In this document: in pieces, positions 1,419 through 46,114 of the stretch
Numbering within the stretch: the first letter of the stretch is position 1
Layout of the letters: the number at the start of each line of letters is the position of its first letter
From: Candidatus Rifleibacteriota bacterium
Lineage (GTDB): Bacteria; Muiribacteriota; Ozemobacteria; Ozemobacterales; Ozemobacteraceae
Length of the DNA stretch: 46,114 nt
Assembly (NCBI GenBank): GCA_012517355.1
Contig: JAAYVD010000106.1
Span: forward strand, 1-46,114
Direction of reading: 5' to 3'
Translations under genes and position numbers: made by a program
Notes under the pieces: model-generated
Told to the model about the DNA's origin: nothing
What the model saw: the letters and a program-made list of their open reading frames with translations, nothing else
Database searches by the model: none

Positions 1419-4130
1419 TCAGTCGGCCTTTTCCTCGGTGGCGGGAATGCGGGCCACCGAGATCAGCTGGTCGTTCTCCTCGAGGGTGATCAGCTTCACG
1501 CCGGAAGCGGCGCGGCCGGTGGCGCGCACGGTATCGGCGTTCAGCCGCACGATCTTGCCGCCTTTGCTGACGATCATCAGCTCGTCACGCTCGAACATCC
1601 GCTTGATCGACAGCACTTCGCCGGTCTTCTCGCGGATCCGGAGGTTGATGACGCCCTTGCCCCCGCGGTGGGTGACCCGGTAGGCATTGATGTCGGTCTG
1701 TTTCCCGAACCCCTTGGCGGTCACGGTCAGCAGCTTGCCGTCGAAGGCCACGTATTCACCGGCCGGGACGCCCTCGACCTCGTCGGCCTCGGGTTCCTCC
1801 TCGGGGCCCTCTTCGGGCTCCAGCGGCTCGAGCTCGATGGGCGGTTCGGCCGGCTCGGGAGCAGGGGCCTCGCCGTCCTGGGGTGGCGCGGAGCCGGCCA
1901 GGCCGGCGGTCTCGGCGGCGACGGCCGCGGCCGGGGTTTCGGTCTTGGGCGAGAACACCTCCATGCCCACCACGAAGTCGTCCTTGCCGCGGAACTTGAT
2001 GGCGGTCACGCCGCGGGCGGCGCGCCCCATCACCCGGACCTCGCTCTCGGGGAACCGGATGGCATACCCGTCGCGGGTGGCGATGACGATCTGCTCGCCT
2101 CCCCTCAGGGTCTTGACGCCGGCCAGTTCGTCGCCTTCGTCGAGATTGATGGCGATGATGCCCTTCGAGTTGGGCCGGGCGAAGGCCGACAACTCGGTCA
2201 TCTTGGCCACGCCGCGCCTGGTCACCATGAAGATGCGGCGGGTCTGGTCGAAGTGCCGCACCGGCAGCAGGGCGGTGATCTTCTCGTTCTCGCCCAGGTT
2301 GAGCAGGTTGACGATGGCCCGCCCGGAGGCCTGGCGGCCGCCCTCGGGGATCTTGTAGCCCTTGAGCCAATGCGCCTTGCCGGTGCTGGTGAAGACGAGC
2401 AGGTAGGAATGGGTGGTGGCGAGGAACATGTGTTCGACCACGTCGTCTTCCTTGATGCCGCCCACCAGGCTGCCCTTGCCGCCACGCCCGATCTGCCGGA
2501 AGGCGTTGGGCGCGATGCGTTTGACGTAGCCGTTGCGGGTCACCGTGATGATGATGTCGGTCTCCTGCATCAGGTCTTCGATCTCGAGCCGTTCCGCCTC
2601 GGATTCGCTGATGCGGGTGCGCCGTTCGTCGGCGAACTTGTCGCGGATCTCGGTGAGTTCCTGTTTGATGATGTCGCGGACCTTGACGTCGGAGGCCAGG
2701 ATGCCTTTCAGCTTTTCGATCAGGGCCAGGGTCTCGTGGTACTCCTGGACGATCTTCTCGCGTTCGAGTCCGGTCAGGCGCTGCAGCCGCATGTCGAGGA
2801 TGGCCTGGGCCTGCCGGTCGCTCAACGTGAAGGTGTCCATCAGCCCCTGCTTGGCCTCGGCCGGGCCGGCCGATTCCTTGATCAGGGTGATGACCGCGTC
2901 GAGGTTGTCGAGGGCGATGGTCAACCCTTCCAGGATGTGGGCCTTCTCCTCGGCCTTCTTCAGCTGGAAGGCGGTGCGCCGGCGGATGACGTCGCGGCAG
3001 TGGGCGATGTAGTGCTCCATCAGGCTCTTGAGATCGAGCACCATGGGCCGGTTGTCGACCAGCACCAGCATGATGATGCCGAAGGTCGACTGCATGGGAG
3101 TGTGCCGGTAGAGCTGGTTGAGGATGACCTCGGTGTTGACGCCCTTGCGCAGTTCGATGACCACCCGCATGCCTTCGCGGCTCGACTCGTCGCGCAGGTC
3201 GGTGATGCCGTCGATCTTCTTCTCGCGGATCAGGTCGGCGATGGTCTTCACCAGCTTCGCCTTGTTGACCTGGTAGGGAAGTTCCGTGATCACGAGCCGT
3301 TCGCGACCCTTGGAGAACTCCTCGGTCTCGACCACCGCCCGCATGATCACGCTGCCGCGGCCGGTTCGGTAGGCCAGCTCCGCGCCTTCCCGGCCCATGA
3401 TCAGGGCCCCTGTCGGGAAATCCGGGGCGGGGATCTCGCGGATCAGGTCGTCGATCGTGGTCTCGGGATCATCGAGGAGCTTGAGCAGGCCGTTGGTCAC
3501 TTCGCCCAGGTTGTGCGGCGGAATGTTGGTGGCCATGCCGACCGCGATCCCCGCCGAGCCGTTCACCAGCAGGTTGGGGAATTTGGATGGCAGGACGATC
3601 GGCTCCTGGAGGGAGCCGTCGAAGTTGGGCATCCAATCGATCGTCTCCATGTCGATGTCGCGCAGCATCTCCTCGGCCAGGGCATCGAGCCTGGCTTCGG
3701 TGTAACGCATGGCCGCGGGGGAATCGCCGTCGATCGACCCGAAGTTCCCGTGCCCGTCGATCAGCGTGTAGCGGAGACTGAAGTCCTGGGCCATCCGGAC
3801 CAGGGTGTCATAGACCGCGCTGTCGCCATGCGGATGGTATTTGCCCAGCACTTCGCCGACGGTGCGGGCCGACTTCACGTAGGCCCGCTTGCTGGTGAAG
3901 CCGTTGTCGAACATGGCATACAGGACCCGCCGGTGGACCGGCTTGAGACCGTCGCGCACGTCGGGCAGCGCCCGGCCCACGATGACGCTCATCGCGTAAT
4001 CGAGGTAGGAGTCCTTCATGTCGTCCTCGATGTTGATGTATTCCTCGTTGGACGGCAGTTCGGGCGGAGCGGGAGGGACGGCCGGCCCGCTGGGGGGGAC
4101 CGGAGGAAGGGTGTCGTTATCGTTCGCCAT
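1419..4130 (-). CDS. gyrA: DNA gyrase subunit A
   Basis: A 903-residue breakage-reunion subunit of DNA gyrase. The N-terminus has a Pro-rich extension (about 1-27), then the winged-helix/tower core with the catalytic Tyr143 in AAMRYTE. The quinolone-contact residues Ser104 and Asp108 (HGDSAVYDT) are the sensitive wild type. The C-terminal beta-pinwheel carries the GyrA-box region as QIGRGGKG, which differs from the usual Q(R/K)RGG(R/K)G. Between pinwheel blades there is an acidic Pro/Glu/Ala-rich insert of about 70 residues (starting [10 protein letters not shown]), which is unusual. It lies 11 bp downstream of gyrB, so it is co-transcribed. The start ATG directly precedes MANDND. Confidence 0.97.
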
Positions 4131-4141
4131 GGATCGCGGCC

Positions 4142-6133
<1,992 letters not shown>

Positions 6134-6430
6134 CTACTCCTCGTGGGAAACCGGGTTTCGGGTGGGGGAGCCCCGGCCGGCGGGGGGTCGCAGATACAGC
6201 GCCCCGGGGAAGGGAGAGGTCCGCCCGCGGTGAGCGAGCGCCTCGGGGGAGATGGTGGAGGTCAGCCAGCGGCCCTGGGTGGTCAGCACGGCGCTGCGGG
6301 CTTCGGGGTCGGTGGCGGGGCGGGCGGCCAGCGCCCGGCGCCGCGTGGCGGGATCGACGGTCTGCAAATTGACGATCGCCACGCAGTAATGCAGATCGAT
6401 GAACTCCTGGCCGCCGAGATGAATCAGCAT
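6134..6430 (-). CDS. remB: RemB/YaaB-like (DUF370) small regulator
   Basis: A 98-residue protein beginning MLIHLGGQEFIDLHYCVAI, which matches the MYIHLG...(V/I)...(I/V)V(G/A)I start of the RemB/YaaB (DUF370) family. A middle segment (SAVLTTQGRWLTSTISPEAL) resembles the family's VVT...IYLSPIS. In Bacillus, yaaB/remB also lies directly upstream of gyrB, so position supports the call. Its ATG overlaps the stop of the upstream dciA-like gene (ATGCTGA), indicating translational coupling. RemA/RemB regulate biofilm-matrix genes in Bacillus; the role here is unknown. The tail after residue 65 is Pro/Arg-rich and not family-like. Confidence 0.75.
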   Translation of the reverse strand: MLIHLGGQEFIDLHYCVAIVNLQTVDPATRRRALAARPATDPEARSAVLTTQGRWLTSTISPEALAHRGRTSPFPGALYLRPPAGRGSPTRNPVSHEE

Positions 6431-7407
6431 GCCGGCTCTCCGGCGTCCAGCGCCAGGAACTCCTTCCAGGCGGGATCGAGCAGGAACCGGCCGGTGGGTT
6501 CATCGAGATCGATCAGGTGGGGATGGAGACCGGTCTGGAAAATGACCGCCCGGAGCATCTCGTAGCGCATCTTCAACCAGACTCCGCCCTGGAAGCTTTC
6601 CTGCAGGGATCGCCCCAGGGCCCGCACCTGGGCCAGGGCCTCGCCGGCCATGTCGCTGCGCAGGGCATCGAACTCGAGGGGTTGCAACCCCGGAACCTGC
6701 TGCCGGACTTCTTCCTGGGTGAGCCAGGGGGTCTCGTACAGGAGCCGGCGGGCGGCCGCCAGGTCCTGTTCGCGGGCCCGGCACTGGCAGATGGAGCAGG
6801 TGTCGAGGGCATGCGGCACCAGATTCGAGCCGCAGACGCGGCAGAGATGGTATCCCTGTTGGCGCAGGCCTTCCAGCCGGGCGCGCAGTTTCTGGCGGCA
6901 TTCCTGGATCTTGTGGATCAGTTCGGGATTGCCGATATCGGGCAGGTCGGTTTGCGGCTGGGTCTTCCAATCGGGCCAGACGATGGTGGGGGATTCGCGC
7001 AGGACCGCGGGGATCACCCCGACCTCCCCCTGGATGCGGGTGATGCGGGCATCGGGGAACAACCGTTGCAGGTTGGCCTGGATCTGGGGCTTCAGGTAGG
7101 TGAGGGTCTGCATCCATTGCGAGTCGGCGCACAGAACCACCAGGCGTCCCCGTACCAGCCGGATGGGATACACGAACCGGCGCAGATCGCGGCCGGCGAT
7201 CGTTTCCCAGGAATAGGCGAGCCGGCCGAGCAGGACGATGTCGCGGACGCTGGCGTCCCAGCGTCCCGGTTCTCTGGACGCGGAAGAGGAAGGGCCGGTT
7301 CCGTTGCCGCCACGGCGTTGCCGCTCGCGGAACAAGGCAAGACATTTCCCCACCTCGCTTTTCAACGGGGTGGGAGCCTTGGAACGAGTTCGCGCCAGTT
7401 TTCCCAT
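6424..7407 (-). CDS. DciA-like (DUF721) protein with zinc ribbon and extra C-terminal domain
   Basis: 327 residues from the ATG at 7407 (MGKLARTRSKAP). In-frame starts farther upstream lack a convincing ribosome-binding site and would read toward the dnaA terminator. An N-terminal DUF721 domain (about 45-150) shows WETIAG, VRGRLVVLCADSQWMQTL and the family's L..L...I...L spacing. DUF721 includes DciA, the bacterial replicative-helicase loading/operating factor. A Cys4 zinc knuckle follows (CRVCG...CSICQC, about 205-225), then about 100 helical residues I do not recognise. Position between dnaA and gyrB fits replication initiation, but canonical DciA lacks the zinc ribbon and tail. Confidence 0.7.
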   Translation of the reverse strand: MGKLARTRSKAPTPLKSEVGKCLALFRERQRRGGNGTGPSSSASREPGRWDASVRDIVLLGRLAYSWETIAGRDLRRFVYPIRLVRGRLVVLCADSQWMQTLTYLKPQIQANLQRLFPDARITRIQGEVGVIPAVLRESPTIVWPDWKTQPQTDLPDIGNPELIHKIQECRQKLRARLEGLRQQGYHLCRVCGSNLVPHALDTCSICQCRAREQDLAAARRLLYETPWLTQEEVRQQVPGLQPLEFDALRSDMAGEALAQVRALGRSLQESFQGGVWLKMRYEMLRAVIFQTGLHPHLIDLDEPTGRFLLDPAWKEFLALDAGEPAC

Positions 7408-7531
7408 AAGGTTGGGTGAAGAAATTCCATGATACTCCAAACCAACCCCCATTTCAAGGGGGTCGGATGGCCAGAGACCTTCTCTGCGAGAGGTTTTCCA
7501 GGGAATTTCCAACCTTACCGGCCCGCCAACG

Positions 7532-7558
7532 AAAACCCCTCCTGGGTCTCAGGAGGGG
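7532..7558 (-). terminator. Intrinsic terminator after dnaA
   Basis: A perfect 9-bp stem (CCCCTCCTG 7536-7544 with CAGGAGGGG 7550-7558) and 5-nt loop, followed on the minus strand by TTTT. It lies 33 bp downstream of the dnaA stop and separates dnaA from the dciA-remB-gyrBA operon. Confidence 0.85.
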
Positions 7559-7590
7559 AAAAGAAAGGGAACCGGAGGGACGGGAGGTCT

Positions 7591-8979
7591 TCAGGTCCGT
7601 CCCTGGGGGTTGACGTAGCGGGTCACCCGCTCGAATTCCTGCCGGAAATCGGCGTTGTCTTTCAACAACCCCTGGATCTTCTCGCAGGCATGCATGACCG
7701 TCGTGTGGTCGCGGCCGCCGAAGGCCTCGCCGATCAGGCTCAGCGAGGAATCGGTCAGCATCTGGGTCAGGCGCATGGCCACCTGCCGGGGCAGCACCAG
7801 GTTCTGGGACCGGCGCTTGCTGGTCATCTCGCCCTCGGGAATATCGTAATACTGGGCCACCCGCTTCTGGATCCAGGAGATGGTGATCCGGCCGGGGGTG
7901 TTTTCCCGCAGGAAGTCTTTCAGGATGTGGTCGACGAGATCGCGATCGACCGGCCGCTGGACGACGCCGGCGTAGGCCACCACGCGGTTGAACGCCCCTT
8001 CGAGGACCCGGATGTTGTCGGTGACGTTTTCGGCCAGATACATCAGGATCTCGTCCGGAACCCGGATCAGGCAATCGACCGCCGCCCGCTTCAGGATGGC
8101 GACGCGCATCTCCAGGTCGGGGGCCTGGATATCGGCGACGATGCCCATCTCGAACCGCGATACGAGTCGCTCCTCGAGCTTGTTGATCTTTTTGGGCGGG
8201 GAATCGGAGGTCAGCACGATCTGCTTCTTGTTCTGGAACAGCTCGTTGAAGGTATGGAAGAACTCCTCGACCACCGCCTCCTTGCCGCCGAAGAACTGGA
8301 CGTCGTCGATCAGCAGGAGGTCCTTCTTCCGATATTTGGCCCGGAATTCGCTGGTGCGCTTGCCGGAAATGGACTCGATGAAATCATTGGTGAAAGCCTC
8401 GGAGGACAGGTACGCCACCTTCGCTTTGGGGTTCTGCCGCAGCACTTCCTGGCCGATGGCCTGCATCAGGTGGGTTTTGCCCAACCCCACTCCGCCGTAG
8501 ATGAAAACGGGGTTGTACATCGTGCCGAGGTTCTTGGCGACGGCCTGGCAGATGGCATGGGCGAACTGGTTGCTCTTGCCGACAACGAAGGTGTCGAAGG
8601 TGTACTTCCCGTTGAATTGCGTCTCGCCGCGAGGAACCGACCGATGCTTCTCGGGGGGTGCCACGGTCTCGATCACCGGGGTTTCGGCGATGGTCGGCAG
8701 GCCGAGTTGTTGCGGTCTTTCAGGGCCGCTCCGCTTCAGCCGCGTGACGAACACACACTGCAGGGGTGGAGCGTTTTCCTGAAGGACTTTCTGGATGAGA
8801 ATCCTGTATTTACGCTCGTTCCAATCTTTGCAAATCTCGTTCACGGCCTCGAGAACGAACTTCTCACCTTCGATTCCGCGAGGTTGGATGGCATTGAGGA
8901 AGAGCTTCAGACCTGCTTCGTTATCCTGTGACTTGATCTCTCCGGTAATCTGGTTCCAGAGATCGGCGGTGGCTTTCAT
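7591..8979 (-). CDS. dnaA: Chromosomal replication initiator DnaA
   Basis: 462 residues with all DnaA domains. Domain I is at about 1-80 and a linker at 80-120. The AAA+ domain has Walker A GGVGLGKTH and Walker B LLLIDDVQFFGG, a sensor-1 region VLTSDSPPKKI and an arginine-finger region LVSRFEMG. The C-terminal helix-turn-helix domain has the DnaA signature GGRDHTTVMHACEKI. It binds DnaA boxes and melts the origin. The ATG at 8979 has a GAGGTGA Shine-Dalgarno sequence. It is transcribed away from the putative oriC at 9.1-9.35 kb. dnaN and recF, frequent neighbours, do not follow it here. Confidence 0.98.
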   Translation of the reverse strand: MKATADLWNQITGEIKSQDNEAGLKLFLNAIQPRGIEGEKFVLEAVNEICKDWNERKYRILIQKVLQENAPPLQCVFVTRLKRSGPERPQQLGLPTIAETPVIETVAPPEKHRSVPRGETQFNGKYTFDTFVVGKSNQFAHAICQAVAKNLGTMYNPVFIYGGVGLGKTHLMQAIGQEVLRQNPKAKVAYLSSEAFTNDFIESISGKRTSEFRAKYRKKDLLLIDDVQFFGGKEAVVEEFFHTFNELFQNKKQIVLTSDSPPKKINKLEERLVSRFEMGIVADIQAPDLEMRVAILKRAAVDCLIRVPDEILMYLAENVTDNIRVLEGAFNRVVAYAGVVQRPVDRDLVDHILKDFLRENTPGRITISWIQKRVAQYYDIPEGEMTSKRRSQNLVLPRQVAMRLTQMLTDSSLSLIGEAFGGRDHTTVMHACEKIQGLLKDNADFRQEFERVTRYVNPQGRT

Positions 8980-37374: not shown

Positions 37375-40254
37375 TCAGGGTTTGAGGGCCTGGGCCACCT
37401 CGAGTTTGATCTTCTCGAGCATCTTGGCGGCGTACAGGCCCTGCTGGCTGCGGGGGTCGACCATCCTGGCGACGGTGGCGAAGGTCTCGGCCGCCTCGCG
37501 GTAGGCGCGGCGGCGGTAGTAGACCATGCCGAGATTGATCTTCAGGGTGACGTCACGCGGCTCGACGGTGGTGGCCATGACGTAGGCTTTGGTGGCGTCG
37601 ATCAGCTTTCCCGACTTGTAGTAGATGTTGCCCAGGGCGGAATAGACGTAAGCCGCCTTTGGGTTGATGCGGGCCGCGGCCTTGAGCGCCTTTTCCGCCT
37701 CGCCCAGCTGGCCGAGCTTCATCTGCCGCATGCCTTCCTGGAAACTCCGCTGGAATGACTCCTCCCGCTTGCGGGCGGTGGCGTGCGCCTCCTCGAGCTT
37801 GCGGAAGTCGGCCGGCGGCAGGATGACCTTGAGGGCGGCCAGCGCCTCGCGGCTGATCAGCAGGTCGCCGTCGCGCAGGGCGGTGAGCAGCGGCGCCTTG
37901 GCCTCCCCGGCATGGAGCAGGCCTAGAGCCTTGATCGCCGCGCGCCGTTCCTCCCAGGGGTGGGTGGGTTTCAGCAGGTCGATCAGGACGGGGATGATGG
38001 CCGGGTTGCCGAGATCGGCGAAGGCACGGATGTAGACGCTGCGGGTTTCGGGGTCGGTCTCCTTGTCGAACCGGTCGCGCAGCGGGCGGTAGCTGTCGGG
38101 GTGGCCGATCTCGCCGAGGGCCTTGATGACGGGAACCTTCAGGTCGATCGTCTCCTCGTCGAGGAGCCGCAGCAGGTCGGGAACCGCGCGCTGGACGCGC
38201 ATCCGGCCCAGGATGCCGACGACGGTGAGCTTGAGGGTCCAGTACTCCCGGCCCATGGCCGAGAGCAGGGCGGGAACGGCCCGGTGGTCGCCCAGGGCCC
38301 CGAGCGAGCGGGTGGCGGCCAGGGCGAGGTCCTCGTCGTCGTCGTCGAGGGCGTCCATCAGGGGTTCGACGGCGGCCGCGTCGCCCAGCACGCCGAGGGT
38401 CTCGGCGGCGGCGATGCGGGCCGGCCAATGCTCGTCTTTCAGGTGGGGGATGACGATCTCGACGTCGCCGGGCTGGCCGATGCGGCCCATGGCTAAAAGG
38501 GCCTGGCGCCGGATCTCGTGGTTCTTGCTCTCGAGCAGGGCGACGACGGCCTTGCGGGCGGTGGGCCCGAACGCCTCGAGTGCCCGCCGGATCCAGTAGT
38601 TGACGTGGTCGTCATACTTGCCCAGGTTCTGGCAGAGCCTGGGCAGCACGGTCTCGGAACCCATGTTGCGGAAGGTCTGGACGACGCTTTCCAGCAGCCG
38701 CCGGTTCTCGCTCTTGAACAGGGTGAACAGGTCGTCGAGGATGACGGGGCCGTAGTTGGCCAGGGCCTTCTGGGCGGCGGTGCGGATGGCCTCGGAGGGG
38801 TCTTCGAGGGCCTTGAACAGCAGGGGCAGGGAGATCTTCGAGCCGATGCGGCCGAGGGACTGCAGGACCCAGAACCGCACCTCGGCGTCCGACTCGGTGG
38901 CCAGGTTGGTCAGTTCGATCAGGGCGTCCTCGCCGAAGGTGGCCAGGATCTCGGCGGTGGTCTTGCGGACGTTCCAGGACCGGTCGCGCAGCAGCTTGAG
39001 GAGTTCGTGGAAGGCGCCGGGCGGTTTCAGCTCGCCGATGGCGCGCAACGCCCAGTAGCGGACGTCCTCCTCCAGCGAGCCGAGGGCGCTCAGCAGCGGG
39101 GAATAGGCGGCCGGCCCGTAGCGGATGATCGATTTGCAGGCCTCGCGGCGCACCACCCAGGAGGGGTCGATGAACCGTTCGATCAGCAGGGGGATGCCGT
39201 CGGGGTTCTGGAAGGAGCCGAGAGCCTGGACGGCGGCCATGCGGATCTCGGAATCGGCGTCGCTGAGGAAGGTGCGGATCTCGGGAAAGGCAGTCTCCTC
39301 GCGCATCTGGCCGAGGATCTTGATGGCCCAGTATTTCCGTTCCTTGTTCTGGCCCTCGAGGGCCTCGGCCAACGGAGCCACCGCCTCGGTGCCCATTTCG
39401 GCCAGGGCCCGGGCGGCCAGCGAGCGGCCCATCCAGTATTCACTCGACAGCGAATCCATCAGGTACGGGATGGAATAGGTGCCGAAGTCCTTCAGGATGT
39501 CGTAGATCAGGTCGCGGACCTGCTCTGACGGCTGCGAGAGGGCTTCGAACAGGCGGCTGACGATGTGGGGGTCGCCGATCTCGCGCAGGGCCCGCAGGGC
39601 GGCGATGCGGACGCCGGTGTCGCGGTCGGTCAGCTTGTCGAGGAGGGTCTTGGTGTGGGCGCGGTCGCGCAGGTGCCCCAGGCAGAGGCAGGCCCAGAAC
39701 CGGACGTTGGCGTCGGGGTCCTCGACCGCGGCCTGCACGGCCGCCTCGGCGGCGCGGCCCATGCGGGTGATGGCCAGGGCCGACCGGGAGCGGACCTTCC
39801 ACGACTTGTCGCCGAACTGCCTGATCAATTGGGCGAGACCGGCTTTGGAGCAGCGGGCCAGGGACTTGGCCGCCATCACGGCCACCGCGTCCTTGGCGTC
39901 GCGGATCAGCTCGAACAGGCACCGGACCGCCTCTTCGTGGGAGGTGCCGGCGAGGGCGTAGGCGACCCGCAGCCGAACGTCGGCCGACCGGTCGCGGGCC
40001 AGGGGAACGAGGATCTCGGCGGCATTGGGGGGGGCGATGGTGGCGATCGCCTCCACCGCGGCGCACCGGACCTCCTTGGAACGGTCGTTGAGCACGTCGC
40101 GCAGGGGGTCGACGGCCAGGGGGGTTTTCAGGCGGCCCAGCGACTTGACCGCCTTCAACCGCTTGGTGATCAGCGTCGATTTGAGGTCGGTGACCAGGTC
40201 TTCCAGTTCGCGCTGCACGGAGCACTCCCCCTTCATGGTCATTTTTTCCGGCAT
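37375..40254 (-). CDS. Large HEAT-repeat protein with C-terminal TPRs
   Basis: 959 residues. From about residue 15 to 830 it consists of roughly 25 HEAT/PBS-lyase-like repeats of about 31 residues, e.g. DPHIVSRLFEALSQPSEQV, VREAL-type helices and GRIGSKISLPLLFKALEDPS. The last 125 residues form about three TPRs (AEKALKAAARINPKAAYVYS and TLKINLGMVYYRRRAYREA). No signal or membrane segment, so cytoplasmic. Such proteins are scaffolds; partner unknown. GAGG lies 9 bp before the ATG and an extended -10 promoter (40281-40290) lies upstream. It is related in style to the murA-linked HEAT protein at 19204-20916. Confidence 0.85.
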   Translation of the reverse strand: MPEKMTMKGECSVQRELEDLVTDLKSTLITKRLKAVKSLGRLKTPLAVDPLRDVLNDRSKEVRCAAVEAIATIAPPNAAEILVPLARDRSADVRLRVAYALAGTSHEEAVRCLFELIRDAKDAVAVMAAKSLARCSKAGLAQLIRQFGDKSWKVRSRSALAITRMGRAAEAAVQAAVEDPDANVRFWACLCLGHLRDRAHTKTLLDKLTDRDTGVRIAALRALREIGDPHIVSRLFEALSQPSEQVRDLIYDILKDFGTYSIPYLMDSLSSEYWMGRSLAARALAEMGTEAVAPLAEALEGQNKERKYWAIKILGQMREETAFPEIRTFLSDADSEIRMAAVQALGSFQNPDGIPLLIERFIDPSWVVRREACKSIIRYGPAAYSPLLSALGSLEEDVRYWALRAIGELKPPGAFHELLKLLRDRSWNVRKTTAEILATFGEDALIELTNLATESDAEVRFWVLQSLGRIGSKISLPLLFKALEDPSEAIRTAAQKALANYGPVILDDLFTLFKSENRRLLESVVQTFRNMGSETVLPRLCQNLGKYDDHVNYWIRRALEAFGPTARKAVVALLESKNHEIRRQALLAMGRIGQPGDVEIVIPHLKDEHWPARIAAAETLGVLGDAAAVEPLMDALDDDDEDLALAATRSLGALGDHRAVPALLSAMGREYWTLKLTVVGILGRMRVQRAVPDLLRLLDEETIDLKVPVIKALGEIGHPDSYRPLRDRFDKETDPETRSVYIRAFADLGNPAIIPVLIDLLKPTHPWEERRAAIKALGLLHAGEAKAPLLTALRDGDLLISREALAALKVILPPADFRKLEEAHATARKREESFQRSFQEGMRQMKLGQLGEAEKALKAAARINPKAAYVYSALGNIYYKSGKLIDATKAYVMATTVEPRDVTLKINLGMVYYRRRAYREAAETFATVARMVDPRSQQGLYAAKMLEKIKLEVAQALKP

Positions 40255-40533: not shown

Positions 40534-40562
40534 TTGACCCCGGGCGGTGGGCGGGATACAAT
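40534..40562 (+). promoter_or_regulatory. Promoter of the secreted protein / LURP-one operon
   Basis: TTGACC (40534-40539), a 17-bp spacer and TACAAT (40557-40562). The start would be about 40569, only 1-2 nt before the ATG at 40571, so the mRNA may be leaderless. Confidence 0.7.
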
Positions 40563-40570
40563 TCCCGTCG

Positions 40571-41404
40571 ATGAACCCCTTTCCCCGACTCCGGTGGCAT
40601 GTCCCCGGCCTCTGGCTGCTGGCGGCCCTGATCGCCGCCACCGGCCTGGCGGCGGCCGGCGCGCCGCCTGCCCCGACCGAGGTCATCGTGCCGGGCACGC
40701 CTCCCCTCACCTTCCTCGACGTCGCCAACCACGTCCGGCTGTTGGAACTGGTGGTCGGCCACCGCGCCACCCGGGCCCAACAGGACCGGTTCCTGGAAGC
40801 CGTCCGGCAGGCGGGGCGGGCGAAAGACCCCCGGGCCCGCGAAGCCCTGGTGCAGGCCAGGGAACTGGTCCAGTCGATGGCGGGGATGGGCGATGGCGAG
40901 CGGGCCACCGTCCGGCGCCTGCTGCACGAGGATTTCACGGCCACCGCCCGCACCGACGAGGCCGACCCCGCCGCCCGCCTCTTCCTGGAACTGCAGGACA
41001 AGAGCGCCCGGATCCTGGTGGGGACGGGCACCTCCAGCATGTCCGAACAGGCCGTCGATGCCTTCGCCGAATACCTGGCGGGCAGCGGCGGGAAAGGGAA
41101 GCCCGCCGCCTGGAACGCCGCCCGCACGAAACAGCTGATCGCCGGCCTGACGGCCCTCTGGCCCCGCCTTCCCGCGCCGGCCCGGGCCGCCCTGGCGGCC
41201 TTCGACCAGACCTGGTACCTGATGCGCGCCGCCCCGGTGGCGCACCCCGCCGTGGCGCGGCCCGCCGGCCCCCCCGACCTGGGTCCGGCCGACCTGGAAC
41301 CCCTGATCCGGCCGGAGGTGTGGCAGCAGCAGGCCTCGGCGGCCGCGGCCCTCGGCCAGACAGCCGCCGGGTGGCCGGCCGATCCGTCCAATATCGTGTG
41401 GTGA
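40571..41404 (+). CDS. Secreted protein of unknown function
   Basis: 277 residues from ATG 40571; an in-frame GTG-like start further upstream would precede the promoter. Signal peptide about 1-32 (LWLLAALIAATGLAAAGAPP). The rest is helical: LTFLDVANHVRLLELVVGHRATRAQQDRFLEAV, then Ala/Arg-rich helices and a Trp-rich C-terminus. No known motif was recognised. It is 11 bp upstream of, and probably co-transcribed with, the LURP-one-like gene. Confidence 0.6.
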   Translation: MNPFPRLRWHVPGLWLLAALIAATGLAAAGAPPAPTEVIVPGTPPLTFLDVANHVRLLELVVGHRATRAQQDRFLEAVRQAGRAKDPRAREALVQARELVQSMAGMGDGERATVRRLLHEDFTATARTDEADPAARLFLELQDKSARILVGTGTSSMSEQAVDAFAEYLAGSGGKGKPAAWNAARTKQLIAGLTALWPRLPAPARAALAAFDQTWYLMRAAPVAHPAVARPAGPPDLGPADLEPLIRPEVWQQQASAAAALGQTAAGWPADPSNIVW

Positions 41405-41415
41405 GGGAGCAGACA

Positions 41416-41994
41416 ATGACCGATTTTTTCCAATGCAAGGAATACGTGGTCCGGGAGAGTGTCGGGTTCACCAACCTGCACGAGTCATACGACATCTGGG
41501 ACGCCGAGGAGAAGGCCCGCCTGGCCAGCGCCACCGAAGAAGCCGACCTGGCGCTCAAGATCCAGAAGCTCTTCCTGGACAAGGCCTTCCTCCCCGCCCT
41601 GGTGAAGGTCCATGACGTCGCCGGCCGGCTCCTGCTCGAACTGGAACAGCCCCGCTCGCTGATCGTCTCGAGCCTGATCGCCCGCGATGCCGAAGGCAAG
41701 ACCCTGGGCACCTTCCGGCAGAACCTGTTCTCATACGGCGGGGCGTTGGAAGTGACCGGGCCCGACGGCCTGCCCCTGGGCACCATCAGCGGGGACTGGA
41801 AGTGCCGCCAGTACACCTTCGCCGACACCGGCGGCAAGGCCCTCGCCACCATCGACCATCTCTACGGAGGCCTGGCCCGCGAACTGCTCACCACCGCCGA
41901 CGACTACCGTGTCAGGATCCTGGGCGACCAGTCGCTCGCCCCCCTGGTGCTGGCTGGTACTCTCGCCGTCGACCTGGTATTCCACGAGGTCTGA
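41416..41994 (+). CDS. LURP-one / phospholipid-scramblase-like protein
   Basis: 192 residues from ATG 41416 (GGGAG 6 bp upstream). It matches the LURP-one-related/scramblase fold: a 12-stranded beta-barrel pattern with YVVRESVGFTN, LVKVHDVAGRLLLELEQPRSL, GKTLGTFRQNLFSYGGALEV, LGTISGDWKCRQYTFADTGG and ATIDHLYGGLARELLTTADDYRVRI. The central hydrophobic C-terminal helix (LAPLVLAGTLAVDLVF) is expected for the fold. Bacterial members (such as YxjI) are of uncertain function; lipid binding is likely but scrambling is unproven. Confidence 0.8.
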   Translation: MTDFFQCKEYVVRESVGFTNLHESYDIWDAEEKARLASATEEADLALKIQKLFLDKAFLPALVKVHDVAGRLLLELEQPRSLIVSSLIARDAEGKTLGTFRQNLFSYGGALEVTGPDGLPLGTISGDWKCRQYTFADTGGKALATIDHLYGGLARELLTTADDYRVRILGDQSLAPLVLAGTLAVDLVFHEV

Positions 41995-42301: not shown

Positions 42302-45265
42302 TCAGCCGCCGGCTTCCCGGGCCTTTTCGGCGGGGGGTTCCATCGCCGAAAAGTAGTATCCCAGCGATTCCAGCACGATCGATTTGCTGAACTCGTCGAT
42401 GTCCTCCTTCAGGACGGGAAAGTCCATGGACAGCACCTCGGCGGAGTTCCGGTCGAAGACCTTCAGGCGCAGCTGGTCCCCTTCCCGCATGATGTCCCGC
42501 CGGGAGGTCGAGTTGAAGATGAACCCGACCCGGGCCGGGTCTTCCGCGTGGGTCCGTCCCTGGGCGACGGTGTTGGTGTTGTGGTTGCGTAGTTCGACCC
42601 GGTAGGCGGGGCTGTCGCCCGCGATGGCCCTGGCCATCTCGGGGCACTGCAGGCTCACGAAGAAATGTCGCAGGGGGGGGCGGAAGGGGGAGTCGGCATG
42701 GAACGGGTAATACCAGGCACGGGACTCCGGTGTGCTGAGGTCGATGGTGGCCGACCCGGTCTTCAGTTCCTTGATGGCCACGACGTGCGGCATGGTGGCC
42801 AGCACTTCGTGGGATTCCTTGATCGAGATCTGCACCAGGAGCATGTCCTCGGGGAACAACGGCTCGAGCGAGCTGCAGTCGGCCAAAAGCCGGCCGGCCC
42901 GGAGGGTGTCGAGGGTCAGGGGAAGCTGGATCGACCGGCCATCCTGCAGGTTGCGGACGGTGAAGACGAACTCCTCGCCCGATGATTTCTCCGATCGACC
43001 GGAAGCCAGCTTTTCGAACAGGATCTCCAGCCGGAAATCGGGGGTTTCGGGGGTGATGCCCAGGGATACCAGGTGGTCGGCCGCGTTGGTGAAATCGACC
43101 TGGAAATCGTGCGTCTGCTGCAACCATTCCAGTTTCTTTTTCGCCTCCACGTAGCCGGGGTTGAGGCGAAGGGCCTCCTCGTATTCCGCGATGGCTTCCT
43201 CCCGCTTGCCGATCAGTTGCAGGATGTTGCCGATCCGTGACCGGATGTCGGGGTAGTTGGGGAAGGAGGTCCGGAGGTCTTTGTGGATCTCCAGGAGGCT
43301 GTGCAGCTTCTGGAAATAGACCCGGAGGTGCTCGAGTTTCTCGCCGATGTCCTGGTAGGTCGGGTTGATTTCCGAGACGAAATGGAAGGCCTGGGAGGCC
43401 TGGTAGAAGCGGCCTGAATTGAAGAAATACTGTCCCAGCAGGTAGTAGATCCGGACGTTCTTGGGTTTCACCTGTAGCAGGACGTGGATGGCGTCGTCGA
43501 ATTTCTGCATCTCGGCCAGGCAGAGGGCCAGTTGGACGTTGGCCTCGGCGTAGCCGGGGCTGATCTCGAGAGCCCGCCGGCAGAAGGTCTCCGCCTCGGG
43601 GAAGCTCTGGTGGAGGAACAGGACCTTCGCCATGTCGGTCAGCAGGTCGGGGAAGTCGGGCGATTTCTCGAGGCGGGCCTGGAGGAGCTTGATGGCCTGA
43701 TCGAGGTGTTCGGGCCGGCCCTCGATGAGGGACAGGAAGGCCAGGGCCAGGTGGTTGGCCGGATCGAAGTGGAGGGCCCGGTGGAAGGCTTCCAGGGCCT
43801 GGGAGAAATTCTTCTGCAGGTAGTAGATCTCCCCCAGCATCTGGAACAACTGGGGTGACTCGGGGCAGATTTCGATCATCCGGGTGGCGTCCTTCAGGGC
43901 CTGATCGAGATACCCGGATGAAATGTTCAGGCGGATGTACTTGAGGACCGAGGCATAGTTCTCGGCCGCCATGTTCAGGGGGTCGTCGGTGGGGACCCCG
44001 GTTTCCCCTCCTGGCTGGGAGCCCTGGGTGCCGGCCCCGTGGTGGCCGCCGGGGGCGAACAACAGCCGGTAGATGAACCCCGACTCGGCCTTGCGATGGA
44101 AGCTCGTTTCCCCGAAGATCTCCCGGCCGATGGTGCGCAACACCTCGCAATAGGGATCGTTGGGAACGTGCTTGTACACGGTTTCCCCGTGTTCGAGCCG
44201 GAATTCCTTGACGGAGGGCAACGCCCCCAGGACCGGGAACTTGAACATCTTCTGGGCCTTGCCCAGGGCCTGCGGGTCGTTGGTCTTGACGATCAGGAGC
44301 TTGACGTGGTTCTCGGGCAGGCTGAGGTGGGACAGCCCCTGGAAGAACAGCGAGTTGCTCTTGATGGCGATGGCGTCGTTCAGGCTGACCAGGAAGAAGA
44401 TGTGGTCGGCCAGGTCGAGGGCGTTGAAGAAGATCTCCCCCATGGTCGAGTCGGTATCGATGATGATGTAGTCGAAATGCCTGCGGCAGGTCTTGATGAC
44501 CGGGATCAACTCCTCGCCGGTCACCCGGTCGCTGTCGAGGAAATCCTTGGGGGCGGGAAGGGAATAGAGGTTTTCGGAGTGCCGGACGAGGTTGCCCAGC
44601 AGGTCTTCACGCTTGCTCACCCCGGTGCGCAGCCTCTCGGCCAGCTGGACGATCGACTTCGGGGAGAAGACGCCCAGCACGTAGGTGCCGTCGCCGTAGT
44701 ACAGGTCGAGGTCGATGAACAGGATCTGCTTGGGCAGCTCGTTGGCCATGAGCTGGGCCATGGCAGTGGCGAAGGTCGTCTTCCCGTACCCGGCACGGGC
44801 CGAGCCGACGGTGATCACCTTGGCGTCGTAAACCGGCTCGCCGGCCGGTTTGGCGATCTTCTGCAGGTTCGATTCCTTCAGGCGTTTGCTGAGAGCGCTC
44901 AGCAGCTTGAAGCTGATGGCCGGCCGGTCGTTCAGCAACCGTTCGAAGTCCTGGCCCGGGATCTTGAACAGGACCGAATTCTGGGCGGCGATGGCGGTGG
45001 CCGAACGGGCCGAGTCCTTGTCGAACAGGGCCATCTCCCCGAAAAAGTCACCGCTCTTGAGGAGGGCCAGGATCTTCTTCTCGTTCAGGAAATCCTTGAT
45101 GGAGATCTCCACCTGGCCGGCTTTGATGAGGTAGAACTCCCGCGAATACTCCCCCTGCCGGAAGATGACCTCACCGCGCTTGACGGTTTCGGTGACGGTG
45201 ATGTTCGAGATCTGTTCCAGTTCCCTGGGATTGAGCCCCTGGAAGAGCTCGATGGCATCGAGCAT
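42302..45265 (-). CDS. Cyclic-nucleotide-binding domain / ParA-MinD-CpaE ATPase / TPR fusion protein
   Basis: 987 residues. Residues 1-130 form a CRP-type cyclic-nucleotide-binding domain with the phosphate-binding cassette FGEMALFDKDSARSAT (Glu77, Arg87). Residues 145-395 form a P-loop ATPase with GSARAGYGKTT (deviant Walker A; the usual signature Lys of KGG reads Arg), IDLDLYYGDGTY and DYIIIDTDS, closest to CpaE/TadZ or MinD types. Residues 430-720 contain about eight TPRs (PANHLALAFLSLIEG and PGYVEAKKKLEWL). The C-terminal 230 residues are a beta-rich domain I do not recognise. Likely a signal-controlled positioning or assembly factor; inference. Two TAGAAT elements lie upstream (about 45323 and 45375). 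Confidence 0.8.
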   Translation of the reverse strand: MLDAIELFQGLNPRELEQISNITVTETVKRGEVIFRQGEYSREFYLIKAGQVEISIKDFLNEKKILALLKSGDFFGEMALFDKDSARSATAIAAQNSVLFKIPGQDFERLLNDRPAISFKLLSALSKRLKESNLQKIAKPAGEPVYDAKVITVGSARAGYGKTTFATAMAQLMANELPKQILFIDLDLYYGDGTYVLGVFSPKSIVQLAERLRTGVSKREDLLGNLVRHSENLYSLPAPKDFLDSDRVTGEELIPVIKTCRRHFDYIIIDTDSTMGEIFFNALDLADHIFFLVSLNDAIAIKSNSLFFQGLSHLSLPENHVKLLIVKTNDPQALGKAQKMFKFPVLGALPSVKEFRLEHGETVYKHVPNDPYCEVLRTIGREIFGETSFHRKAESGFIYRLLFAPGGHHGAGTQGSQPGGETGVPTDDPLNMAAENYASVLKYIRLNISSGYLDQALKDATRMIEICPESPQLFQMLGEIYYLQKNFSQALEAFHRALHFDPANHLALAFLSLIEGRPEHLDQAIKLLQARLEKSPDFPDLLTDMAKVLFLHQSFPEAETFCRRALEISPGYAEANVQLALCLAEMQKFDDAIHVLLQVKPKNVRIYYLLGQYFFNSGRFYQASQAFHFVSEINPTYQDIGEKLEHLRVYFQKLHSLLEIHKDLRTSFPNYPDIRSRIGNILQLIGKREEAIAEYEEALRLNPGYVEAKKKLEWLQQTHDFQVDFTNAADHLVSLGITPETPDFRLEILFEKLASGRSEKSSGEEFVFTVRNLQDGRSIQLPLTLDTLRAGRLLADCSSLEPLFPEDMLLVQISIKESHEVLATMPHVVAIKELKTGSATIDLSTPESRAWYYPFHADSPFRPPLRHFFVSLQCPEMARAIAGDSPAYRVELRNHNTNTVAQGRTHAEDPARVGFIFNSTSRRDIMREGDQLRLKVFDRNSAEVLSMDFPVLKEDIDEFSKSIVLESLGYYFSAMEPPAEKAREAGG

Positions 45266-45390: not shown

Positions 45391-46114
45391 TTACCGGGCC
45401 GACTGCCAACCGATGAGAAGGACGAAGAACAGGGCCAGCAGGTGGCAAAGGTCGGCGGGCTGCTGGAACAGCAGGTCCGGGGTGCTCAGGACCATGGGAA
45501 GCAGCGACGACAGGCGGGGGAAGTCCAGCACGAGGGTCAGGACGGCGGCCAGCCCGGCGACGATCCGGAAACACCCCGACCCGTTGCCGGCGATGAAGGA
45601 GGCGAGGACCATGACCGCGGCGGCCGTGAGGAAGGCCAGGAGGGCCTGGTTGAGGAGGACCTGGTCGAGGAGCTGCGCGGCGGAAGGGCCGGCGACGGAG
45701 GAGGCCAGGAAGCCCAGCTCGACGCCGGAGATCAGGAGATACAGGAACGCCAGGCCACCGAGGTGGGTGCGGGGCCGGGGTGCTTCGGGGAGCGGCTGCG
45801 GCGCGATCCAGGCATGGTCTGCGTCGGCGCCGGGGGCGGTCCCGGGCTCGGGCGGGGAAGGAGGTTCGCCGGGCGGCGGCGGAAAGGGGGCGGCCGGGGG
45901 TGGCCAGGCCCCTTGGGCGCCGTGGTGCGGTGGAGGCGGGGATGGGGGAAGGGTGGCGGCGGGCCCGGGGCCTGCGGGGAAGCGGGCGCCGCAATGCGGG
46001 CAGAAGGCGGTGCCGGCCGGGGCCTGGGTGCCGCAGGCAGGACAGGACCCGGGGGATGGGGCGGCCTGGGCGGGGGTGCCGCATTGTGGGCAGAAGGCCG
46101 AACCTGGGGGGACG
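45391..46114 (-). CDS. Double zinc-ribbon membrane protein, N-terminus cut by the window edge
   Basis: The frame is open from the window edge to a TAA at 45391-45393. It has two or three zinc-ribbon units near the visible start (AFCPQCG, CPACG, AFCPHCGARF) and a long Pro/Ala linker. Three to four membrane segments follow (LAFLYLLISGVELGFLA, ALLAFLTAAAVMVLASFIAG, IVAGLAAVLTLVLDF and LCHLLALFFVLLIGW). The start lies beyond base 46114. Zinc-ribbon plus Pro-rich plus multi-TM layouts are common in uncharacterised envelope proteins. Function unknown. Confidence 0.75.
   Translation of the reverse strand, partial: VPPGSAFCPQCGTPAQAAPSPGSCPACGTQAPAGTAFCPHCGARFPAGPGPAATLPPSPPPPHHGAQGAWPPPAAPFPPPPGEPPSPPEPGTAPGADADHAWIAPQPLPEAPRPRTHLGGLAFLYLLISGVELGFLASSVAGPSAAQLLDQVLLNQALLAFLTAAAVMVLASFIAGNGSGCFRIVAGLAAVLTLVLDFPRLSSLLPMVLSTPDLLFQQPADLCHLLALFFVLLIGWQSAR

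Follow-up and report, generated by a model that had tools for sequence, protein, structure and literature searches.

Does a single chain encoded by an uncultured bacterium join a cyclic-nucleotide sensor to a positioning ATPase, and if so, what might it place? The window, the whole 46,114-nucleotide stretch analysed here, is the entire contig C2 of a 7.1-Mb genome (G000; Ozemobacteraceae, Ca. Riflebacteria). From the letters alone, an earlier sequence-only reading had proposed that one of its genes encodes a second-messenger-controlled ATPase that positions pili, secretion machines or chemosensory arrays.

Architecture and integrity of the gene

The 987-aa open reading frame is intact, with zero internal stops, and every domain has the codon-position GC pattern of coding sequence, which is uniform along the gene (genes in this GC-rich genome were called by GC3). 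Its features are as follows.

42302..45265, (-): whole gene, 987 aa; cyclic-nucleotide-binding (CNB) domain, CpaE/MinD-like ATPase, membrane-targeting motif, TPR array and two beta-sandwiches
44858..45265, (-): CRP-type CNB domain with C-helix, residues 1-136 (Pfam; helix 115-136 in the model)
44993..45043, (-): phosphate-binding cassette FGEMALFDKDSARSATA, residues 75-91, with Glu77 and Arg87 (homologue alignment)
44111..44833, (-): CpaE/MinD-like ATPase, residues 145-385 (AAA_31; PDB profile; CpaE-like relatives)
44774..44797, (-): deviant Walker A RAGYGKTT, residues 157-164; Arg157 at the signature-lysine site, Lys162 the P-loop lysine
44054..44083, (-): MinD-type amphipathic membrane-targeting motif SGFIYRLLFA, residues 395-404, internal, in the ATPase/TPR linker
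43115..43957, (-): TPR array, residues 437-717 (Pfam TPR; paired helices in the AlphaFold2 model)
42761..43042, (-): first Ig-like beta-sandwich, residues 742-835 (separate model and structure comparison)
42362..42676, (-): second, Ig/CBM20-like beta-sandwich, residues 864-968 (best Z 8.1, borderline)

Pfam finds in this one chain a cNMP_binding match (residues 26-113, 1.1e-23; 83.4 bits against a cut-off of 27.5), an AAA_31 match (149-295, 4e-11) and several TPR families over residues ~440-712 (best 5e-26), with no match beyond about residue 720. In the AlphaFold2 model of the full chain (mean pLDDT 81), well-formed separate domains are joined by disordered linkers at 133-146, 391-432 and 723-732, and the domains have no fixed arrangement, as the pTM is 0.39. 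The domain search proposed by the sequence-only reading, together with the model, bears out its order of CNB, ATPase, TPR and beta parts. Its "unknown beta domain" exists but is in fact two domains: modelled alone, the C-terminal part forms two tandem Ig/Fn3/CBM20-like beta-sandwiches (pLDDT 82.5, pTM 0.79), for which no Pfam match and no PDB sequence match was found. We did not deduce a function from this fold, as the structural matches reach a Z of 8.1 at best, which is borderline, and are common to unrelated proteins.

The fusion is genuine and lineage-specific. An assembly error joining two or three genes, the concern raised at the outset, has a practically negligible probability, because full-length homologues with an identical domain order are found in independently assembled genomes from several other genera and the coding signature runs through all domains; we found no support for it, the only possible hints being one homologue in two pieces and one in-frame stop codon. 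The former, in G018 (L106:7960-10876, G018:C1), is split near residue 425 in the ATPase/TPR linker and may be a natural split or a frameshift error. The latter, a single TAG in the TPR region of the paralogue on contig C69 (L002:3277-3279, G000:C69), may be a nonsense mutation, strain variation or a sequencing error.

Matches occur in 23 of 24 genomes of the family, many of them full-length, and the named relatives among the matches listed are Ca. Riflebacteria, Ca. Ozemobacter sibiricus and Ozemobacteraceae MAGs. Of the genomes sampled across the phylum, only those of Ozemobacteraceae showed the form with the beta part. The CNB-ATPase core is widespread in the phylum, being present in 28 of 38 genomes of a sample centred on a Wallbacteria genome, which appears to overlap the earlier sample. 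Three further long paralogues are encoded elsewhere in the window's own genome, on contigs C69 (L002/L107), C71 (L003/L108) and C10 (L004/L109), the last without the beta part, as are four short CNB-ATPase proteins. In the family tree (28 rows), the window protein and its orthologues from two other genera, L100 (G009) and L114 (G008), form group A (100/100). Group C contains the C71-type copies and group D the C10-type copies, which do not have the beta part. Group B, the competence-linked copies, is named by synteny and comprises two clades on this tree whose joining is unresolved.

ATPase, membrane-targeting motif and nucleotide-binding domain

As a profile against the PDB, the ATPase matches 3EA0 (2e-30), FlhG (4e-24), MinD (1.5e-21) and TadZ 3FKQ (1e-4). 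Its P-loop reads S-A-R157-A-G-Y-G-K162-T-T, and the catalytic pair Asp185/Asp187 (DLDL) is kept. The retained Lys162 and the Arg at the signature-lysine site had both been described correctly in the sequence-only reading, but the Arg, which it had singled out, is no special feature. The P-loop Lys is nearly invariant across the homologues, and the signature site varies among K, R, Q and G: several group-B sequences have Lys, the C69 paralogue has Gln, two group-D members differ again, and most of the others have Arg. Arg also occupies this site in a CpaE relative outside the phylum (SSRGGTGVTT, in the phylum of genome G044), and it is Ser in McdA, which functions as a positioning ATPase (PMC6328274). 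We therefore rejected the Lys-to-Arg change as the key oddity of the protein and regard it as ordinary variation.

The assignment to the CpaE type is upheld by relatives from other phyla. A combined CNB-ATPase profile run against 396 genomes of G044's phylum gave strong ATPase-only matches in five genomes; among the four of these proteins that were read, three contain Response_reg plus AAA_31 and one a weak TadZ_N plus AAA_31. Across the sampled genomes of other phyla, the ATPase part matched CpaE/TadZ-like proteins most strongly, and those of G044's phylum end in similar hydrophobic and basic tails at the sequence level. Since the closest relatives found in this sampled outside phylum pair a receiver with a MinD-like ATPase, the CNB domain takes the position of the receiver. 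Among the best few candidates per genome, 195 genomes from the phylum of the Myxococcales locus gave no match above the cut-off and 296 genomes from the phylum of the Treponema locus gave one CNB-ATPase protein; absence from other phyla is provisional because only these best few candidates were scored.

The linker directly after the ATPase is poorly conserved except for SGFIYRLLF, a motif absent from the sequence-only reading. The membrane-targeting sequence of E. coli MinD is KGFLKRLFGG (PMC5471200). A similar motif is found at the same place in 15 of 17 long members, where shuffled linkers predict 1.5 and none of 5000 shuffles reached 15, a comparison to be read knowing that the pattern was written after the rows had been seen and that the 17 rows are related. 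The motif is missing from two group-D sequences. Of the four short CNB-MinD paralogues, three end in a similar motif (for example, KKTWLGNLFGG), as MinD does. Because the motif is C-terminal in the short paralogues and internal in the long members, these positions suggest that the TPR/Ig scaffold was added behind a pre-existing membrane anchor.

The CNB domain contains the complete phosphate-binding cassette that had been claimed for it. The cassette has CRP spacing, with the Arg ten residues after the Glu, and every long homologue aligned over the cassette has both Glu77 and Arg87; in two short paralogues, the Arg is lost (YANT, ALCT). At the C-helix sites matching CRP Thr127/Ser128, which contact adenine, the window protein has S-N and many relatives have T-T or T-N. 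A source of cyclic nucleotides is likely to exist in the host, because its genome holds 87 Guanylate_cyc-domain matches. The cyclase and pilus/secretion repertoire of this genome is unusually rich; it includes 32 T2SSE matches over the cut-off.

Genomic context of the paralogues

We compared the surroundings of the window copy with those of its paralogues. The neighbours of the window copy are as follows.

45391..46113, (-): upstream gene, truncated at the contig end, with a double zinc ribbon and a hydrophobic C-terminal part
41416..41994, (+): scramblase-like gene, conserved neighbour (Pfam Scramblase 5e-7; same order in G001)
40547..41404, (+): 285-aa gene without assigned function, conserved neighbour (same order in G001)
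37375..40236, (-): HEAT-repeat and TPR protein, conserved neighbour (same order in G001)

The upstream gene is a homologue of an FHA/zinc-ribbon membrane protein encoded just upstream of the G009 orthologue, and the order of the other three genes is conserved in G001, which belongs to another genus. No tad, pil or competence genes were found among the window-copy neighbours examined, and a Tad-pilus cluster beside the gene was set aside as a candidate context, the pilus-type ATPase of the group-B loci being GspE/PilB/ComG-like.

Group-B copies have a different and conserved setting. Nine genomes from four genera show this arrangement (G000, G002, G003, G008, G018, G019, G020, G022 and G023): the CNB-ATPase gene and a conserved 260-aa gene are transcribed divergently, their starts 117-346 bp apart. 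In eight of the nine, the 260-aa gene is followed by a second ComEC (~980 aa) and then, contig permitting, by ComEA-like HHH, ComEC-type metallo-beta-lactamase and RecJ-like DHH proteins; the G008 locus has the ComEA, metallo-beta-lactamase and DHH genes without the second ComEC. On the opposite side, G018, G020, G022 and G000 carry genes for a GspE/PilB/ComGA-like rather than TadA-like ATPase, a GspF-like protein and pseudopilins. A ComEC match is present in every genome of the family, nearly all of which include the canonical ~740-aa ComEC. In two genomes of the window's own genus (G012 and G013), the second-ComEC cluster has no CNB-MinD gene beside it. Coordinates of this cluster in Ozemobacteraceae are L105:10890-18375, L107:2-7334 and L103:10917-18172.

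The conserved ComEC2-type cluster beside one paralogue suggests, at the level of gene order, signal-controlled placing of DNA-uptake or pilus machines. The neighbourhood survey that had been proposed, with tad or pil genes in mind, finds group B, in four of the nine genomes, near GspE/PilB-like, GspF-like and pseudopilin genes but no tad genes. The proposed link to pili and secretion machines holds for this one paralogue group but not for the window copy, and nothing points to chemosensory arrays. The pseudopilin genes around the C71 paralogue say little about a pilus link and were set aside, because N_methyl matches are so common in this genome (at least 150, roughly one per 47 kb). Elsewhere in the same genome, the group-D copy on C10 lies between nfeD-type genes and floA, which encodes flotillin (L109:6685-12595). 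Short CNB-ATPase genes adjoin a Spore_YtfJ-family gene in two genomes (L005:2699-3136 and L145:6449-6880).

Candidate mechanism, alternatives and known systems

Our preferred reading, in which our confidence is about evenly divided, is that the protein is a cyclic-nucleotide-gated, membrane-recruited CpaE-like scaffold, with any role in pili or competence drawn from the paralogues only. It would be a CpaE/TadZ-like ATPase with a CRP-type cyclic-nucleotide sensor in place of the N-terminal receiver and a docking scaffold, the TPRs and two Ig-like domains, appended after the membrane-targeting motif. Binding of cAMP or a related cyclic nucleotide to the N-terminal domain would alter ATP-dependent dimerization of the MinD-like domain; the dimer would expose paired SGFIYRLLF motifs, which are present in the chain and may attach it to the inner membrane; and the TPR/Ig-like part would then recruit and place a client machine. 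For the group-B paralogue, this client would most likely be a competence pilus or DNA-uptake machine. For the window copy, the best candidates are two gene neighbours: the FHA/zinc-ribbon membrane protein immediately upstream and the nearby HEAT/TPR protein.

More tentatively, and short of probable, we propose a CNB-CpaE-like ATPase family nearly confined to the phylum, with a MinD-type anchor and one paralogue per client membrane machine, one of which places a ComEC2-based DNA-uptake pilus. If so, a second messenger would directly set where DNA uptake happens. The pairing of group B with ComEC2/ComEA, GspE/GspF and pseudopilin genes is suggestive of an apparatus dedicated to DNA uptake in this uncultured phylum, for which the group-B CNB-ATPase is a candidate positioning factor. 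The receiver-like domains of CpaE/TadZ have an unclear input; the input domain here has a testable small-molecule ligand, and therefore second-messenger control of a positioning ATPase can be tested in one chain. We found no paper joining a cyclic nucleotide-binding domain with CpaE in the literature searched.

Alternatively, the window copy and its group-A orthologues may be general membrane effectors of cyclic nucleotides, organizing for example the FHA/zinc-ribbon protein or envelope lipids and unrelated to pili, with group B alone co-opted for competence. The FHA/zinc-ribbon, scramblase-like and HEAT/TPR neighbours of group A fit this account, as does the membrane-domain context of the group-D copy between nfeD and floA; however, the architecture and membrane motif that the copies share suggest a common mechanism, and the difference from our preferred reading is mainly in the client. 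We consider it somewhat unlikely. It is also conceivable, and in our judgement unlikely, that the CNB domain does not sense nucleotides and is a dimerization module replacing the receiver in a constitutive CpaE-like scaffold. The loss of the cassette Arg from two short paralogues means that CNB domains without a nucleotide may occur in the family, and the receivers of CpaE-type proteins, for their part, have been called atypical (PMC13170226). Against this stand the Glu and Arg kept in every long member with the cassette covered and the many cyclase-type domains encoded by the genome.

The membrane-recruited scaffold that we favour shares features with several known systems. CpaE/TadZ is identified in PMC13170226 (citing Xu et al. 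2012) as the localization ATPase of the Tad pilus, whose motor is positioned and surrounded by CpaE (PMC13170226). Like CpaE/TadZ, the window protein has a ParA/MinD-type ATPase, matched by AAA_31, after a regulatory domain of ~130 aa, followed at the sequence level by an amphipathic membrane-targeting segment. In contrast, its N-terminus is cNMP_binding (1e-23) with no receiver or TadZ_N, it keeps the P-loop Lys that the four compared CpaE relatives do not have, TPR and Ig-like domains extend beyond the membrane-targeting segment, and no tad or flp genes were seen beside the window copy or group B. We therefore call it CpaE-like rather than a CpaE, because the receiver and the tad linkage are missing.

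With MinD it shares the ATPase fold, according to profile matches, and a membrane motif resembling KGFLKRLFGG, but it has Arg for the signature Lys, is fused to other domains and scores 41 bits on minD_bact (NCBIfam) against a cut-off of 212.9. McdA, which positions carboxysomes, is likewise a positioning ATPase without the signature lysine, whereas it has Ser at that site, acts on the nucleoid and is a stand-alone ATPase (PMC6328274). FimV and HubP are TPR-bearing organizers of polar machines according to PMC12918733, which presents them as membrane-spanning with a LysM-like domain and describes no ATPase or CNB domain. The FGE...RSA cassette, its CRP spacing and the C-helix are those of CRP/FNR-type CNB domains; the window protein differs in having no DNA-binding domain, its effector being the ATPase.

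At the other end of the window (1419-8979), a group of genes looks by eye like gyrA, gyrB and possibly dnaA, and this may be an origin region.
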